This document shows, in pieces, positions 8,861-62,407 of a DNA stretch of 64,000 nucleotides; position 1 is the stretch's first letter; each line of letters starts with the position of its first letter. Position numbers and translations under genes: made by a program. The DNA is taken from assembly GCF_013184775.1 (NCBI RefSeq), contig NZ_JAATVV010000009.1, positions 62,001 to 126,000 on the forward strand. Reading direction: 5' to 3'. A model generated the notes under the pieces. That model searched no databases and was not told where the DNA came from. It worked only from the letters and a program-made list of their open reading frames with translations. The DNA comes from Martelella sp. HB161492 (GTDB taxonomy: Bacteria; Pseudomonadota; Alphaproteobacteria; Rhizobiales; Rhizobiaceae).

Positions 8861-9389
8861 CGGGCAGACTCAAGTGATAAGATAGTCATGCTATAAATTC
8901 CAAAAATATGAATCCGTCGTTTCCAATTCAGCATTCGTGAAAATATTTCATCAGTGTTTCGATCTGCGTACCGGCCTCTGCAGGAAGCGCTGATCTCTCC
9001 CCAGACAGGCAATGGCGCCGGTTCTTTTGTGGTTCAGCTACGCGTTCTGATTTCAAATCATCATGAATCATTCGAATTTGACGATTGACGAACGTGAAAA
9101 TCAAGCGCGAACGTCCCGAATTCCGTGTTTTCGCGCAAAGCCCTTTCCACAGAGCGAAATCATGGGCCGACTGTTGCAGCCTTGCCAGAATCGCATTCTG
9201 ACGAAAACTTGACAAAAAGATGGTAGAAATAATCCGGATATATATTGACAAAAATACTCATGTTTTTTAACGCCATCCTTACAGAGATTGTTCCGGCCGC
9301 CTGAGAGGCACCGGAGTTCAGCCAAGCCAGCCAGAAACGGATCATCCGCTCCAGCCAGCCAGGCGCTTTTCAAAGCGAAGGATTTGGTA
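8861..9389. other. divergent intergenic region luxR / TonB receptor
   Basis: This is 529 bases of unusually AT-rich sequence without a credible gene. It contains a perfect 13-base palindrome TGATTTCAAATCA at 9048-9060, a TTGACA at 9209-9214, and the promoter/operator described separately at 9245-9260. An open frame on the minus strand starting with TTG at 9251 has no ribosome-binding site and overlaps the promoter, so I do not call it. Confidence 0.6.
9245..9260 (+). promoter_or_regulatory. candidate RirA iron-responsive operator overlapping a -35 box
   Basis: TTGACA at 9245-9250 looks like a -35 element. TGACAAAAATACTCA at 9246-9260 fits the rhizobial iron-responsive operator pattern TGA-N9-TCA and overlaps it, so a bound repressor would block RNA polymerase. 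It lies 129 bases upstream of the receptor start. A match to TGA-N9-TCA alone is expected by chance about once per 4 kb on one strand; the support comes from its position. Confidence 0.55.
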
Positions 9390-11618
9390 ATGCGAATGGG
9401 GACATTCCGTAAGGCCTTTTGGGGTGCTACGGCACTTGCAACACTGGCGATGCCGGCCTGGGCCGAAGATGGCGCGACCGCGGCAGCCGATAGCGACACG
9501 ACCGTGCTGGCGCCCGTCACGGTGAAGACAGCAGCCAATGGTGATGCCAGCGGCGTTGCCGATACGCCCCTGGCCGTTGATGTCACGGCAGCAGAGCTTG
9601 ACCGTTACGAGATCCAGTCGGTCGATGATCTCGGAAATATGCTGATTCCCGGTGTCGCCTTTGCCGGTGACGAGGGCGGCTCGATCAATATTCGCGGCCT
9701 TCAGGGACCGCGTGTGCTGACGACGATTGATGGTATTCCGATCCCCTATCTTGATCCGGGCGCGCGTTCCGGTTCCGGCGGCGGTGTCGACAGTTTCGAT
9801 TTCAATGCGGTCGCCAATGTCGATATCGTGCGCGGCTCCGACTCCAGCCGCGCTGGCAGCGGCGCCATGGGCGGTGCCATGGTGCTCTCCACGCTGCAGC
9901 CGGAAGATCTGCTGGAACCCGGCGAGAGCTGGGGCGGACGGTTGAAGATGACCTATGACAGCGCCGATCGTTCGCTGAAGACCGACGCCGCCGTTGCCGC
10001 CCAGGGCAAGCAGGGCACTTCGATCCTGTTCCAGGGCATCTACACCACCGGTCATGAGACCGAAAATCAGGGCACCGTCGGCGGGACAGGCGCGACGCGC
10101 TCCGAGGCCAATCCGGCCAATTACGATGAGGACAACTTCCTCTTCAAGCTGAAGCAGCAGATTGACGACGCCACGACCATCGGTCTGACCTTTGAGCGTT
10201 ATGACTACGACAATGACATCGATCTGATGACTGCGCAGGGTTCGACCTACAAGCCCGGCGACTGGAACGGATCGGAAGACAGCCATCGTGACCGCGTCTC
10301 GCTCGACTATTCCTATGATGCCTTCTCCACCGACGGCTGGATCGATGCGGCCTGGGCCACGCTTTACTGGCAGCGTAACCAGCGCATCAGTGGCACGGGC
10401 GGCACCCGTCTGACATCGCCGGCCGGTGCCTATGGCCGCCAGTCGAAGATCACGGAAAATGATTTCGGCTTCAATGGCTGGGCGGAAAACACCATTGATG
10501 CCGGCAATCTCCAGCATAACATCACGGTTGGCGGTTCCTTCAATTACGCCAACACCCAGCAATATTCATCCGGCTATGATAGCTGCGATGTCACCTTTGC
10601 CTATGCCTGCAACTACTACCACAACAATCAGGCGGATACGCCGGAGGTGGATTCCTACGACCTCGGCCTTTATGCGCAGGATGAGATCGTCTTCGGTGAC
10701 AGCGGCTTCGCACTGACGCCTGGCGTCCGCTTCGATGCCTACTGGCGTGAACCGCAGGATACCGCAGCCTACGAAAACAACCCGATGTATGAGACCTATG
10801 GCATGCCCAGCGCCCAGAACGGCGTTCATGTCTCCCCGAAGCTTCTGGCCACCTATGATCTGACGCCGGACGTTCAGCTCTACGGCCAGTTCTCCACCGC
10901 CTTCCGCGCGCCGACCACGCCGGAACTCTATATGGCCTATGGTTCGCCGGGCAGCTATCTGTCGATCGGCAATCCGGACCTGAAACCGGAAACCAGCTGG
11001 GGCTTCGAACTGGGATCGAATTTCGGCGACGATATGTTCGGTGGCCGGGTCTCGGCCTTCTACAACCGCTACCACAATTTCATCGATACCGAGACGCTCT
11101 CTGACAGCGAGATCTCCGCGCTCGGCCTGGACCCCTCGGATTACATGTTCGTCTATCAGAATGTGAATATCGAGAACGTCCAGATTGCCGGTCTTGAGCT
11201 CTCGGCGCAGAAGCAGTTCGAAAATGATTTCAGTGTCCGCTCGTCGCTGGCCTTTGCGCGTGGCTGGAACATGGAAACCAATGAGTTCCTGGCTTCGGTC
11301 GCACCGCTGAAGGCCATTCTCGGTGGTGGCTACAACAACGAGACCTGGGGCGCCAATGCCAATTGGGTGCTGCAGGCTGCGGTTTCCGAGCATTCCGATG
11401 CCAGCTATGCCTGGCCGGGTTATGGCGTTGTTGATCTGACCGCCTGGTGGGCACCTGAACAGCTCAACGGCTTCAAGATCCAAGCCGGCGTCTTCAACGT
11501 CTTCGACCAGACCTATTACGACTCCCTCGACTGGCAGGAGACCACACTGACCCAACCCAAGACCTATTATTCGGAGACGGGCCGCTCCTTCCGGGTCACG
11601 CTGACGCAGACCTTCTGA
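9390..11618 (+). CDS. TonB-dependent outer-membrane receptor, hemin/hemoglobin-receptor-like
   Basis: 742 residues. A signal peptide ends at AMPAWA (about residue 23). A TonB-box-like stretch TTVLAPVTV follows, then a plug domain (INIRGLQGPRVLTTIDG) and a 22-strand-type barrel ending in the typical terminal aromatic (LTQTF). FRAP at 505-508 and NPDL at 528-531 are the signature boxes of the heme-receptor branch, yet the segment between them has no histidine, which heme receptors usually use as ligand. The substrate may be another iron complex. The start at 9390 follows GAAGGA at 9377-9382. No TonB, ExbB/D or ABC import genes are adjacent, so it depends on distant partners. Regulation by iron is likely from the upstream box. 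Confidence 0.88.
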   Translation: MRMGTFRKAFWGATALATLAMPAWAEDGATAAADSDTTVLAPVTVKTAANGDASGVADTPLAVDVTAAELDRYEIQSVDDLGNMLIPGVAFAGDEGGSINIRGLQGPRVLTTIDGIPIPYLDPGARSGSGGGVDSFDFNAVANVDIVRGSDSSRAGSGAMGGAMVLSTLQPEDLLEPGESWGGRLKMTYDSADRSLKTDAAVAAQGKQGTSILFQGIYTTGHETENQGTVGGTGATRSEANPANYDEDNFLFKLKQQIDDATTIGLTFERYDYDNDIDLMTAQGSTYKPGDWNGSEDSHRDRVSLDYSYDAFSTDGWIDAAWATLYWQRNQRISGTGGTRLTSPAGAYGRQSKITENDFGFNGWAENTIDAGNLQHNITVGGSFNYANTQQYSSGYDSCDVTFAYACNYYHNNQADTPEVDSYDLGLYAQDEIVFGDSGFALTPGVRFDAYWREPQDTAAYENNPMYETYGMPSAQNGVHVSPKLLATYDLTPDVQLYGQFSTAFRAPTTPELYMAYGSPGSYLSIGNPDLKPETSWGFELGSNFGDDMFGGRVSAFYNRYHNFIDTETLSDSEISALGLDPSDYMFVYQNVNIENVQIAGLELSAQKQFENDFSVRSSLAFARGWNMETNEFLASVAPLKAILGGGYNNETWGANANWVLQAAVSEHSDASYAWPGYGVVDLTAWWAPEQLNGFKIQAGVFNVFDQTYYDSLDWQETTLTQPKTYYSETGRSFRVTLTQTF

Positions 11619-11644: not shown

Positions 11645-11663
11645 GGGCGGCTCCGGCCGCCCT
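11645..11663. repeat. left hairpin duplicate flanking repeat element copy 1
   Basis: A 7-bp stem (GGGCGGC / GCCGCCC) with loop TCCG, extended by AA...TT to about 9-10 bp, lies 26 bases after the TonB-receptor stop. The same 19 bases occur again at 11873-11891 on the other side of the 209-bp element, making an exact direct repeat. This copy is followed immediately by the element end and so lacks a T-run. Confidence 0.9.
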
Positions 11664-11872
11664 TCAGATTGCTGGCAAAGTCGTTCAGATCGCCTGCTCG
11701 GGGTGGAATGGCCGCCCCCTCCGTCGTCATCCCCGTGCTCGTCACGGGGATCCATACTCTTAAGGATTTGAATAAGGAGAACCTTTCGCCGCGCGGACGC
11801 GCGTCGGCTGGATGCCTGTGACAAGCACAGGCATGACGTTAGAGAAGGGGCTAGGCTTTGCCAGCAGCCTGA
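11664..11872. repeat. 209-bp inverted-repeat element, copy 1
   Basis: The ends form a 17-bp inverted repeat: TCAGATTGCTGGCAAAG at 11664-11680 against 11856-11872. Inside are two 29-base palindromic units, at 11726-11754 and 11809-11837, which are inverted relative to each other with 24 of 29 bases matching. Copy 2 at 61067-61275 has exactly the same length and aligns without gaps at about 83% by hand, with 50 consecutive identical bases at 11701-11750. It has no coding capacity that I believe. The form suggests a non-autonomous miniature element or a REP-like/BIME unit. No transposase gene is in the window. Confidence 0.88.
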
Positions 11873-11895
11873 GGGCGGCTCCGGCCGCCCTTTTT
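11873..11895 (+). terminator. rho-independent terminator of the TonB-receptor gene (right hairpin duplicate)
   Basis: The same 7-bp hairpin as at 11645-11662, here followed by five Ts (11891-11895), which makes a proper intrinsic terminator. It abuts the right end of the 209-bp element. If the element were removed together with one hairpin copy, this terminator would lie directly behind the receptor gene. Confidence 0.8.
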
Positions 11896-11957: not shown

Positions 11958-12002
11958 ATGATGACAAACGCGAACATTGCAAATTGGTGGTGGGCACGCT
12001 AA
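11958..12002 (+). CDS. trpL: trp leader peptide
   Basis: A 14-residue ORF, MMTNANIANWWWAR, with three consecutive UGG codons. It closely resembles the S. meliloti trp leader peptide, which also ends in WWWAR. Ribosome stalling at the Trp codons when charged tRNA-Trp is scarce would prevent the downstream terminator at 12039-12068 and allow trpE(G) transcription. In S. meliloti both the attenuated leader RNA and the peptide are reported to act in trans, so a second regulatory role is possible here by homology only. Confidence 0.92.
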   Translation: MMTNANIANWWWAR

Positions 12003-12038
12003 AGCGGCCACGATCACGCATGTCGATTTGATCAGGAT

Positions 12039-12068
12039 AAGCCGCCCAAGAACTGAGGCGGCTTTTTT
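12039..12068 (+). terminator. trp attenuator terminator
   Basis: AAGCCGCC (12039-12046) pairs with GGCGGCTT (12057-12064), followed by a T-run to 12068. GCGGC just after the trpL stop (12004-12008) can pair with GCCGC in the terminator's 5' arm and so act as antiterminator. This is the classical arrangement for tryptophan-dependent attenuation. When termination occurs, a small RNA of about 110 nt would be released. Confidence 0.9.
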
Positions 12069-12151
12069 GTATTTCGGGCTGTCTCATTGCGGGGCAGGGA
12101 GCAATCGGCGGGAACCGGCACAGGGCTGGCCCGAAAGACGAGGTGGAACAC

Positions 12152-58995: not shown

Positions 58996-61023
58996 ATGAC
59001 GGCCCTTGTGACCAGTCTTGTGGTACAGCATTCTCATGTCACTATTCTGATCGCGCTCGCGGTTGTTCTCACGGGCGGGTTTCTGACCATGTGCCTGATG
59101 GGACGCCTGCGCGGTTCGAGCGGAAGCCAGTTTGCCATCTGGCTCTTCCTTGCCGGCTTTGTCGGCGGCATGACCGCCTGGTCCACCCATTTCATCGCTA
59201 TGCTCGGCTATATCGTCGACGTGCATCATGCCTATGATCGGGTGCTGACATTTCTGTCGCTGGCGATTGCGATCTGCACGACAGTCCTGGCGATATCGAT
59301 CGCATTTGCAGCCCGCGGCAGCGCACTTGTCGAAGCGGCGGGCATTATATTCGGCTTTGGCGTCGCGCTGATGCATTTTGTCGGAATGCGCGGCTTTAAG
59401 GTGGCTGGCTATCTGGAATGGTCCGTGTCCAGCATCGTCTGGGCTCTGATCATGGGAAGCCTGTTTGGCGCTCTTTGCTTCTCGGTCTGCATGCGCGCCA
59501 AGATGAGGCGTCCGGAATGGCTCGCAGCGGTTCTTTTCGGCCTGTCGATTTTCTGCGTCCATTTTATCAGCATGGCTGGCCTCAAGATTATTCCGGCAGA
59601 GGGGATCGTGCTGTCGGGGGCAGATCTGCCGGCCAGGACCATGGTTTTCGTCACGCTGCAGGTGACATCGATTGTCCTTGTTCTGGGCGTCTCCATTCTG
59701 ATTCTCGACAGCAAGACCCGGGAAGGGTTCGATGAACGGGTTCTTCAGGCAGGAGCGCGCGATGTCCTGACCGGTCTTTCCAACCGCGTCGGCTTCAATG
59801 AACATTTCTCGGAGTTGTTTGAACGCGCGCGGACGCGGCATCGGCAACTGGCGGTGATCCATCTTGATATCTCCCGCTTCAAGCAGATCAATGATGTCCA
59901 CGGTCATCTTGCCGGTGACTATGTGCTGCGCGTGATAACGTCACGGCTGCTATCCTGTCTCGGCAATTCCGATTTTCTCGCCCGTGTCGGCAGTGATGAA
60001 TTCGCGATTGTGATCGAGGCCTATAATTACCGCAGCGATGCCTTGCGGCTGATGCGGCGTGTGGGGACCGAGATTGACAAGCCGATCGAGTGGAGCGGCA
60101 CTCAGATCCGTGTCGACTTCCGGGCCGGGATTGCCGTCTTCCCTTCCGATGGCATCGAGCCGGATGAACTGATTGCCCGCGCGGACGCTGCCCTTCTTCG
60201 GGCAAAGCGTTCGACCAGTGAGCGCAGTATGTTTTACGATGCACGGCAGGACCACCATGAGCGCCGCCGCAATGCACTTGCCTTTGACATGCGCCGGTCG
60301 CTGCAGGAGGGGGAGTTTGAGCTTTTCTATCAGCAGCAACACCTGACCAGCGACCGGTCCATTTTCGGTTTTGAGGTCCTGCTGCGCTGGTTCCACAAGG
60401 AACTCGGTTTCGTGCCGCCGGATGAGTTCATTCCGATTGCCGAACAGACCGGCTTTATCCTGGAGCTCGGCGAATGGGTGTTGCGCGAGGCCTGCCTGAA
60501 CGCGGTCAGCTGGAAGAAACCCTATCAGATCGGGGTGAATGTCGCGCCGCTGCAGCTTGCCGATGACCGGTTGCCTGCCAAGGTGAAGGCCATCCTGGAG
60601 GAAAGCGGCCTGCCGCCGCGGCGTCTGGAACTGGAAATCACCGAGACCGGCATTATCGCCGACTATAACCGCGCCTTGGCGGTGATCACGCAGCTCAAGC
60701 AGCTTGGGGTCAAGGTGGCGATGGATGATTTCGGCACCGGCAACTCGTCGCTCCGAACCCTGCAGCAATTCCCCTTCGACAAGATCAAGGTGGATCGTTC
60801 CTTCGTCTCCGGCCTGCCCGATGATCAGCTGTCAGCGGCAATCGTGCGTTCGACTGTCATCATCGGCGCCAGCCTTGGCATTCGTGTGCTGGCTGAGGGG
60901 GTGGAGACCGAGGAGCAGCTGGCCTTTCTGCTTCAGGAGAACTGCATGCGCGCACAGGGCTATCTGTTCGGCAGGCCCAAGCCATTCGACGAAATCAGGT
61001 CGCTGGTGATGACCGAAAGCTGA
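58996..61023 (+). CDS. membrane c-di-GMP protein: MHYT-GGDEF-EAL
   Basis: 675 residues. Seven or so membrane helices carry the MHYT-type sensor motifs [18 protein letters not shown] and CVHFISMAG, thought to bind copper and sense a gas or redox state. The GGDEF domain has GSDEF (332-336), so synthase activity is doubtful, though GTP binding may remain. The EAL domain reads EVL (460-462), a variant seen in active phosphodiesterases, and [10 protein letters not shown] and KVDRSF are intact. It is probably a phosphodiesterase. The 209-bp repeat follows its stop. Confidence 0.93.
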
Positions 61024-61043
61024 CAGCAGGCTGACAGCAACAA

Positions 61044-61066
61044 GGGCGACGCCTGAAGCGCCGCCC
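61044..61066. repeat. left hairpin duplicate flanking repeat element copy 2
   Basis: A 23-base hairpin: GGGCG pairs with CGCCC and CGC with GCG around one A/C mismatch, loop CTGAA. It lies 20 bases after the MHYT gene stop. The identical 23 bases recur at 61276-61298, on the other side of the element. Its sequence differs from the hairpin that flanks copy 1. Confidence 0.9.
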
Positions 61067-61275
61067 TCAGACTGCTGACAAAGTCGTTCCGATTGCCTGT
61101 TCGGGGTGGAATGGCCGCCCCCTCCGTCGTCATCCCCGTGCTCGTCACGGGGATCCGGATTCATAAGACATTGAATAGAAAAGTTCTTTCGCCGCGTGGA
61201 CGCGCGACGGCTGGATGCCTGTGACCAGCACAGGCATGACGTCGGAAAAGATGGAGAGGGTTGTCAGCAATCTGA
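61067..61275. repeat. 209-bp inverted-repeat element, copy 2
   Basis: Same length as copy 1 (11664-11872) and aligned without gaps, 36 differences by hand count. Terminal inverted repeat 61067-61083 against 61259-61275 (14 of 17). The two internal palindromic units are at 61129-61157 and 61212-61240. The middle stretch and the inner right flank differ most; the palindromic units are nearly unchanged. It fills the gap between the convergent MHYT gene and prs. Confidence 0.88.
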
Positions 61276-61298
61276 GGGCGACGCCTGAAGCGCCGCCC
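61276..61298 (-). terminator. right hairpin duplicate, likely terminator region of prs
   Basis: An exact copy of the 61044-61066 hairpin, 30 bases after the prs stop on the minus strand. It abuts the right end of the element. There is no T-run on the minus strand, because the element begins there. Confidence 0.7.
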
Positions 61299-61328
61299 TT
61301 GTTGCGAAAAAGACCTCAATGCCTGGCT

Positions 61329-62261
61329 TCAGTCGAACAGGCTCGATACGGAGCTTTCGTGACTGGTGCGGTTGATCGCTTCGCCGATCAGCGACGCCGT
61401 GGTGACGACGCGAATATTCGGCGACGAGATCACATCACCGCGCGGCTGGATCGAATCGGTGATAACCAGTTCCTTGAGGGCGGAATTGGCAATGCGCTGC
61501 ACCGCGGTTCCGGAGAGAACACCGTGGGTGATATAGGCGGCCACGCTCAGCGCGCCGTTCTTCAGAAGCGCTTCTGCGGCATTGCACAGCGTGCCGCCGG
61601 AATCGATGATGTCGTCTATCAGGATGCATTCCTTGCCGGCGACATCGCCGATGATGTTCATGACTTCCGACTCGCCGGGGCGCTCGCGGCGCTTGTCGAC
61701 GATCGCCAGAAGACAGTCGAGTCGCTTGGCGAGCGCACGGGCGCGGACCACGCCGCCGACATCGGGAGATACGACCATGACATTCTCAAGATTGCGCCGC
61801 GCCTTGATATCCCGTGTCAGGATCGGCAGCGCGTAGAGATTGTCGGTCGGAATATCGAAGAAACCCTGGATCTGACCGGCGTGAAGATCGAGCGTCATGA
61901 CGCGGTTGGCGCCGGCCTGCGTGATCAGATTTGCCACCAGCTTGGCCGAGATCGGCGTGCGGGGACCAGGTTTGCGGTCCTGTCGTGCATAGCCGAAATA
62001 GGGAAGGACTGCGGTAATCCTTCGCGCCGAAGACCGACGGAACGCATCAATCATGATGAGCAGTTCCATCAGGTGGTCATTGGTGGGGAATGACGTCGAC
62101 TGGACAACGAAAACGTCCTCGCCGCGTACATTTTCCTGGATCTCAACGAAAATTTCCTGGTCAGCAAATCGTCTGACGCTGGCCTTCCCCATGGGGACGT
62201 TGAGATAGTTGCAGATCGCATCGGCGAGTTGCCGATTCGAATTGCCTGCGAAAACTTTCAT
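61329..62261 (-). CDS. prs: ribose-phosphate pyrophosphokinase
   Basis: 310 residues from ATG 62261 (MKVFAGNSN). It makes PRPP from ribose-5-phosphate and ATP for purine, pyrimidine, His and Trp synthesis. The PRPP loop is [13 protein letters not shown], and ATP/ribose-phosphate contacts lie in [12 protein letters not shown] and [19 protein letters not shown]. The frame is open 20 codons upstream, but that part lacks family character. Confidence 0.96.
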
Positions 62262-62407
62262 TTCAGCTCGCCCATTGCCGTCGTTATGGTCGCCTTTTAC
62301 CGCTCCCAGATGCGAATGCAAGTCGCTTGAGCGGTACAGTGGTGTTTTTCCGTCGATTTATGACGGAAGGGTGTCATTTCGGTGTCGCGCTTGGGTCTCG
62401 CGGAGCA

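Follow-up and report, generated by a model that had tools for sequence, protein, structure and literature searches.

Described systems

The length of a target duplication is usually fixed for a given transposase. IS1272 and TnSha1 of Staphylococcus, which belong to the IS1182 family, insert at stem-loops, several of them terminators, with no primary sequence specificity in the sections of the two reports used here (PMC4923244, PMC5678879). The elements described below share this choice of target but not its outcome: according to the same sections, IS1272 itself removes the stem-loop and makes no target duplication (Wan et al. 2017, PMC5678879; Furi et al. 2016, PMC4923244), whereas the element in our window duplicates the hairpin whole. 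Wan et al. drew three possible pathways, and one of these, pathway b, in which attack at the 5′ foot leads to duplication of the whole stem-loop, predicts the exact product found here. In the consulted part of that paper, however, pathway b is hypothetical, is placed beside the pathway proposed for IS1272 and comes with no natural case (PMC5678879).

Other relatives are more distant in their products or their enzymes. ISPse1 of Paracoccus is of the same family and comes from the same bacterial class, but the available text gives it 4-bp duplications (PMC3281130). IS1634 and IS1549 have long direct repeats of variable length, but their transposases belong to another family (IS1634), and the portion of PMC2266710 used says nothing of hairpin targets. 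In the part consulted of a 2025 study (PMC12056078), insertion by IS1182 relatives may or may not involve a target duplication or deletion and goes by sequence or by structure; palindrome targeting by some members is credited to Siguier et al., as cited in the consulted parts of PMC5678879 and PMC4923244. Whole-hairpin duplication was met in the open-access literature, so far as its text was available, as a drawn model only; the main IS reviews and ISfinder lie outside that scope, and curators may have noted such repeats.

Two elements in the window

The window is a 64,000-nt stretch of Martelella sp. HB161492 (contig NZ_JAATVV010000009.1, positions 62,001 to 126,000), and all coordinates are window positions. 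It contains two copies of a miniature element (MITE), each flanked by two copies of a hairpin. The features below were defined from the sequence, the elements themselves also by flank parsing and the palindromes of element 1 also by the description in the consulted text of PMC3733652.

11644..11664, no strand: left hairpin copy of element 1, 21-bp target duplication, with no + strand T-run (the element comes next)
11665..11871, + strand: element 1, MITE of 207 bp, ends CAG...CTG
11665..11680, + strand: left terminal inverted repeat of element 1, CAGATTGCTGGCAAAG
11725..11754, + strand: first CGTC-type palindrome (CGTC...CCA) of element 1
11809..11838, - strand: second CGTC-type palindrome of element 1, inverted
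11856..11871, - strand: right terminal inverted repeat of element 1
11872..11892, no strand: right hairpin copy of element 1, 21-bp target duplication, followed by a T-run
61043..61067, no strand: left hairpin copy at the second locus, 25-bp target duplication
61068..61274, + strand: element 2, MITE of 207 bp, ends CAG...CTG
61128..61157, + strand: first CGTC-type palindrome of element 2
61212..61241, - strand: second CGTC-type palindrome of element 2
61275..61299, no strand: right hairpin copy at the second locus, 25-bp target duplication

Read directly, element 1 has AGGGCGGCTCCGGCCGCCCTT on either side and element 2 has AGGGCGACGCCTGAAGCGCCGCCCT, the two copies being identical at each locus and the two hairpins differing from each other. 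The first-pass annotation had likewise seen exact hairpin copies on both sides of each element, a hairpin of its own at the second one and a T-run on the distal copy only. The T-run is present in that position at element 1 (5 T) and is weak after the distal copy of element 2 (TTGTTG). The sizes in that annotation needed small corrections: both elements are real, but the ends proposed for them were one base out, giving 209 instead of 207 bp, and the hairpin copies, called as 19 and 23 bases, were each two bases short. The first hairpin of element 1 begins 25 nt past the stop of a 776-aa ORF (9288-11618; the receptor gene of that annotation), and element 2 is enclosed by convergent ORFs (58996-61023, + strand; 61329-62321, - strand).

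The sole match in an Rfam scan of the window is the RcsR1 sRNA (RF02552) at 11974-12068 on the + strand, with 61.7 bits against a gathering threshold of 60. Its start lies 82 nt beyond the right-hand hairpin copy at element 1, and 74 nt separate its end from a 739-aa ORF at 12143, which we take to resemble anthranilate synthase. This stretch is probably a trp leader or attenuator.

Copies of the element

In this genome the 251-bp region has 51 matches, of which 40 are at least 156 bp long (40 of 89 first-look candidates were scored); congener G007 has a similar number, 47 (40 of 129 first-look candidates scored). Searches of 11 other congeners with the element returned zero, one or two weak matches. 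The terminal-repeat pattern, with at most two mismatches, occurs 62 + 59 times in this genome, compared with 2 + 3 for the reversed control. One congener, G008, has 19 + 13 terminal-repeat hits despite a poor match to the whole element, and thus seems to carry a related element.

A total of 88 copies from 84 loci were parsed, 45 in this genome and 43 in G007. Hits shorter than 120 bp, two loci at contig ends (L039 and L041) and a repeat of L080 (L097) were left out; nine further places in this genome were added from the terminal-repeat pattern list, some of which yielded no parsed copy. With a length of 207 bp, no transposase, terminal inverted repeats, a target duplication and many copies, the element has all the features of a MITE. 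None of 70 plasmid records matching the MITE covers 80% of the whole element. A 52-bp interior piece occurs on plasmids of Rhizobium, where it is frequent, and of Agrobacterium, with 92-94% among the matches listed.

Flanking hairpin duplications

By a strict rule, one hairpin is directly repeated at both ends of 71 of the 88 copies (34 of 45 in this genome and 37 of 43 in G007). The median left/right repeat score is 36 in true pairs and 12 in all 88×87 mispaired flanks, with 69 of 88 copies above the 99th percentile of the mispaired flanks. The right copies of the 54 cleanest duplications all differ from each other in sequence. The hairpins are therefore not fixed parts of the element, as the first-pass annotation had argued, and the alternative of a single hairpin sequence shared by all copies does not hold. 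Left and right copies agree letter for letter in 19 of these 54 pairs. The duplication is 18-30 bp long in 81 of 82 clean cases and 15 bp in the remaining one, and its outermost three positions are complementary in 59, 68 and 68 of the 82. The full hairpin span is only weakly correlated with duplication length (r = 0.33), because the stems continue into A/T tracts.

Matching hairpins at every copy, as implied by the first-pass reading, are found at most copies but not at a minority of 17, in which the strict rule fails (four with an inverted loop, two with two different hairpins, eight with a hairpin at just one end, and three with none). At L024/L262, L104, L112, L023, L021, L107 and L083, the loops of the two hairpin copies lie in opposite orientations; at L024/L262 the entire element seems to be inverted between two species. 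Since the hairpin copies form both direct and inverted repeats, our guess is that arm-to-arm recombination lies behind the inverted loops. At L080 in G007 the order is hairpin-element-hairpin-element-hairpin, suggesting that an already duplicated hairpin can serve as a target once more.

Orthologous empty sites

G007, G001 and G010 were searched with the right flanks of 27 loci. G007 yielded places for 26 of them, while those in G001 and G010 were mostly too diverged for two-sided alignment. By reading, the 26 G007 places comprise 11 empty sites, nine with the element, two with a part-deleted element and four that are ambiguous. Empty sites already holding two copies of a hairpin would speak against duplication upon insertion; none of the 11 does. 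A hairpin scan of the empty-site regions gave exactly one hairpin in nine of 11, and L249 and L259 each have an unrelated hairpin close by in addition to the one at the site. Agreement between the empty hairpin and the duplication reaches 17 of 19 letters (89%) or better at nine of the 11 sites, with weaker matches at L259 (16/22) and at L249, the partner of window element 2 (18/25).

The empty sites thus show that insertion brought in the second hairpin. The same may be said, less firmly, of window element 2, whose empty partner L249 is diverged. Both genomes carry window element 1 (L001 and L043), which therefore has no empty partner in G007. The locus-specific direct copies, together with the empty sites holding a single copy, thus identify the flanks as target-site duplications equal to a whole stem-loop. 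The first-pass annotation had proposed both unusually long target duplications spanning a whole terminator and an element that homes to terminator hairpins; the directly repeated hairpins in 71 of 88 copies, the 11 empty sites and the like behavior of autonomous relatives (see below) bear out both proposals.

The G010 terminators orthologous to L029 and L021 (L226 and L244) contain other sequences that have similar ends and lie between similar hairpins. These are either hot spots or old insertions.

Insertion sites

The MITE sits at terminator-like stem-loops at gene 3′ ends, without a fixed target sequence. The sequence is A-rich before the left hairpin or T-rich after the right one in 53 of 54 clean copies, and both in 34, compared with 6.7% of background 8-mers that are T-rich by the same cut. 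Relative to the G-C stem, the duplication starts one A/T position outside in 34 of the 54 and two positions outside in 11. With ORFs picked by length rather than annotation, 47 of the 88 sites are flanked by convergent ORFs, 36 by co-directional and two by divergent ones, three being incomplete, and the median distance from stop codon to element is 48 nt.

Relatives in the IS1182 family

The terminal repeats of the MITE, CAGAYTGCTGACAAA, are of the type of one branch of the IS1182 family. The shared terminal inverted repeats read TCAGACTGCTGACAAAC in the IS and TCAGAYTGCTGACAAAG in the MITE, and beyond them no similarity between MITE and IS was seen by reading. With one mismatch allowed, TCAGAYTGCTGACAAAG has matches in 78 of 394 genomes of the bacterial family, including two pairs about 1.5 kb apart. 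The IS at L122, from Sinorhizobium sp. A49, is 1519 bp long with an intact 461-aa frame, and that at L123 is 1475 bp with a split frame. The L122 protein belongs to the IS1182-family transposases, scoring 483.5 bits against NF033551 (cut-off 270), and has the Pfam domains DDE_Tnp_1_6 and DUF772. L122 lies between identical hairpins, and L123 between hairpins one base apart. The first-pass comparison with a MITE of an unknown family fits, and the family can now be named as this IS1182 branch by ends and target choice.

For a flank test, 44 IS loci were taken from the best 80 of 225 and 43 were scored (L210 was skipped). Contig-end or partial loci, a masked locus (L202), one with the same flanks (L212) and two with diverged ends (L207 and L208, read by eye) were left out. 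The 43 copies, which partly come from one genome (e.g. several Brucella oryzae copies), comprise 32 direct whole-hairpin duplications, six with two different hairpins, three with one, one with none and one inverted. Direct cases range from Rhizobium to Serratia and, beyond Alphaproteobacteria, include Burkholderia, Serratia, Izhakiella and a Clostridia bin; a Bacillus IS copy was read by eye. A different hairpin is present at each end of the IS at L144, L159, L190, L201, L209, L214 and L276, which could trace rearrangements. IS copies of this kind look like recombinants between IS copies.

A tree was built from 48 transposases, 37 of them labelled as hairpin-end members, and these 37 group in one clade with a support of 0.94. 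Their identity to the L122 protein is 50-100%, and that of the 11 others 25-33%. The labels (DUP, HPENDS and other) were set by hand, and HPENDS also covers copies that have a hairpin at just one end; five proteins that were short or split, as well as L293, were excluded, L302 was placed under other by the terminal-repeat scan alone, the loci labelled other were examined less deeply, and the tree does not include the IS1272 transposase.

Hairpin duplication is not a rule for all of IS1182. By direct-repeat scan, only three of 23 loci in a phylum sample (L272, L273 and L275) have a duplicated hairpin, several of the other 20 being partial profile matches whose ends may lie outside the scanned stretch. 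Among nine phylum-sample loci with ends read, L276 alone has a hairpin at each end, the two being different. Another IS1182 subgroup (L274, L277, L278 and L282) has ends like GGCCCAGAGTGTGTGAAAACG, with no hairpin duplication seen.

No IS1182 transposase scoring over the cut-off is present in this genome or in G007. G008 is the sole congener with one, and the MITE terminal repeat is absent from the two stretches of G008 examined. The shared ends suggest that the MITE would be mobilized in trans by a transposase of the branch. Further short elements of about 60 to 600 bp, with similar ends and similar hairpin flanks, were seen in other genomes at L125, L126, L131, L133, L137, L140 and L141; judging by these, the branch has several kinds of MITE.

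Interior of the element

The interior consists of two palindromes with a CGTC tag and a CCA-like tail, arranged head to head, which fits the description of CGTC REP dimers in the consulted text of PMC3733652. In other genomes, CGTC dimers also occur without the terminal repeats, so the element can be described as IS1182 ends around a REP dimer. These free dimers, unlike the element, have neither the IS1182 ends nor, at the 16 loci examined, hairpin duplications, and they rule out the dimer as obligate cargo. The REP part is real and looks like cargo.

Insertion mechanism

A DDE transposase with a fixed strand-transfer geometry produces a duplication of fixed length. We consider it likely that the element is a MITE of a hairpin-duplicating IS1182 branch, which joins at the two 5′ feet of a cruciform and whose gap repair duplicates the hairpin. 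The terminator stem-loop would be extruded as a cruciform, and the transposase would carry out strand transfer to its two 5′ feet, which would be near each other in the junction and yet about 18-30 bp apart in linear DNA. Fill-in or gap repair would then copy the entire hairpin, and for this reason the duplication would be as long as the hairpin. Insertion as in IS1272, with the hairpin deleted or replaced, was rejected in view of the direct duplications in 71 of 88 MITE and 32 of 43 IS copies.

An ordinary though very long stagger between the cuts at a double-stranded inverted repeat, with no extruded structure, is an unlikely alternative. The weak length correlation (r = 0.33) is compatible with it, and in the consulted text the duplications of IS1549 and IS1634 are long and variable (8 to 514 bp) and are given without a model (PMC2266710); however, both cuts would have to fall at the feet of stems that vary in length and sequence, and the two ends of the duplication are mutually complementary in most clean cases. 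A hairpin read in single-stranded DNA, as on the lagging strand or in an R-loop, with the duplication arising from second-strand synthesis, would likewise present a hairpin-shaped target and would agree with sites at the ends of transcribed genes. We rate it slightly lower still, since the terminal inverted repeats, the DDE-type transposase of the relatives and the two-ended direct duplications favor double-strand transfer. To our knowledge, no target duplication is expected from single-strand HUH elements, and IS200/IS605-like (HUH) elements are defined, as far as we know, by having neither terminal inverted repeats nor a target duplication. The element has both, and this identity was rejected.

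That the element merely came to lie between old tandem terminators, or between hairpins produced by later recombination or gene conversion, is very improbable. Rearrangement does happen, as the 17 of 88 copies with unequal, inverted or missing hairpins indicate, but a second copy is missing from all 11 empty orthologous sites, left and right agree letter for letter in 19 of 54 clean pairs, and the IS copies show the same duplication pattern. Least probable of all, to the point of being nearly negligible, is a REP-like element moved by a RAYT transposase, which the first-pass annotation had offered for comparison. The head-to-head CGTC-type palindrome pair is in keeping with it. The tag is CGTC rather than GTAG, though, and in the consulted text of Di Nocera et al. 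(2013, PMC3733652) RAYTs are tied to GTAG repeats while CGTC REPs have no dedicated transposase; in addition, the element ends match the IS1182 branch, and the CGTC dimers outside this shell, at 16 loci, lack such duplication. The case against RAYT mobilization is made by tag, ends and dimers together.

Implications

The T-run stays with the right hairpin copy and the A-run (the T-run of the other strand) with the left one, and one complete terminator per direction is therefore expected, whichever side transcription comes from. With the hairpin duplicated and not destroyed, a landing would leave these stop signals in place, and terminators would be havens where mobile DNA can land without removing them.

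A duplication length that follows the target stem-loop points to recognition of DNA structure, and the cruciform model is directly testable. The copies provide many natural cases for a pathway that, in the consulted text of Wan et al. (2017), had previously only been drawn. They also point to a candidate mobilizer of one group of CGTC-type REP dimers; according to the part of PMC3733652 used, no dedicated transposase was known for such dimers in 2013. On balance, and with confidence only a little better than even, we favor the view that an IS1182 clade reaching from Alphaproteobacteria to Clostridia selects its targets by DNA shape, at the feet of a four-way junction, that the host hairpin sets the duplication length, and that this 'do no harm' choice spreads passengers. 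If this is true, passengers such as REP dimers would spread through gene 3′ ends via 'do no harm' targeting.
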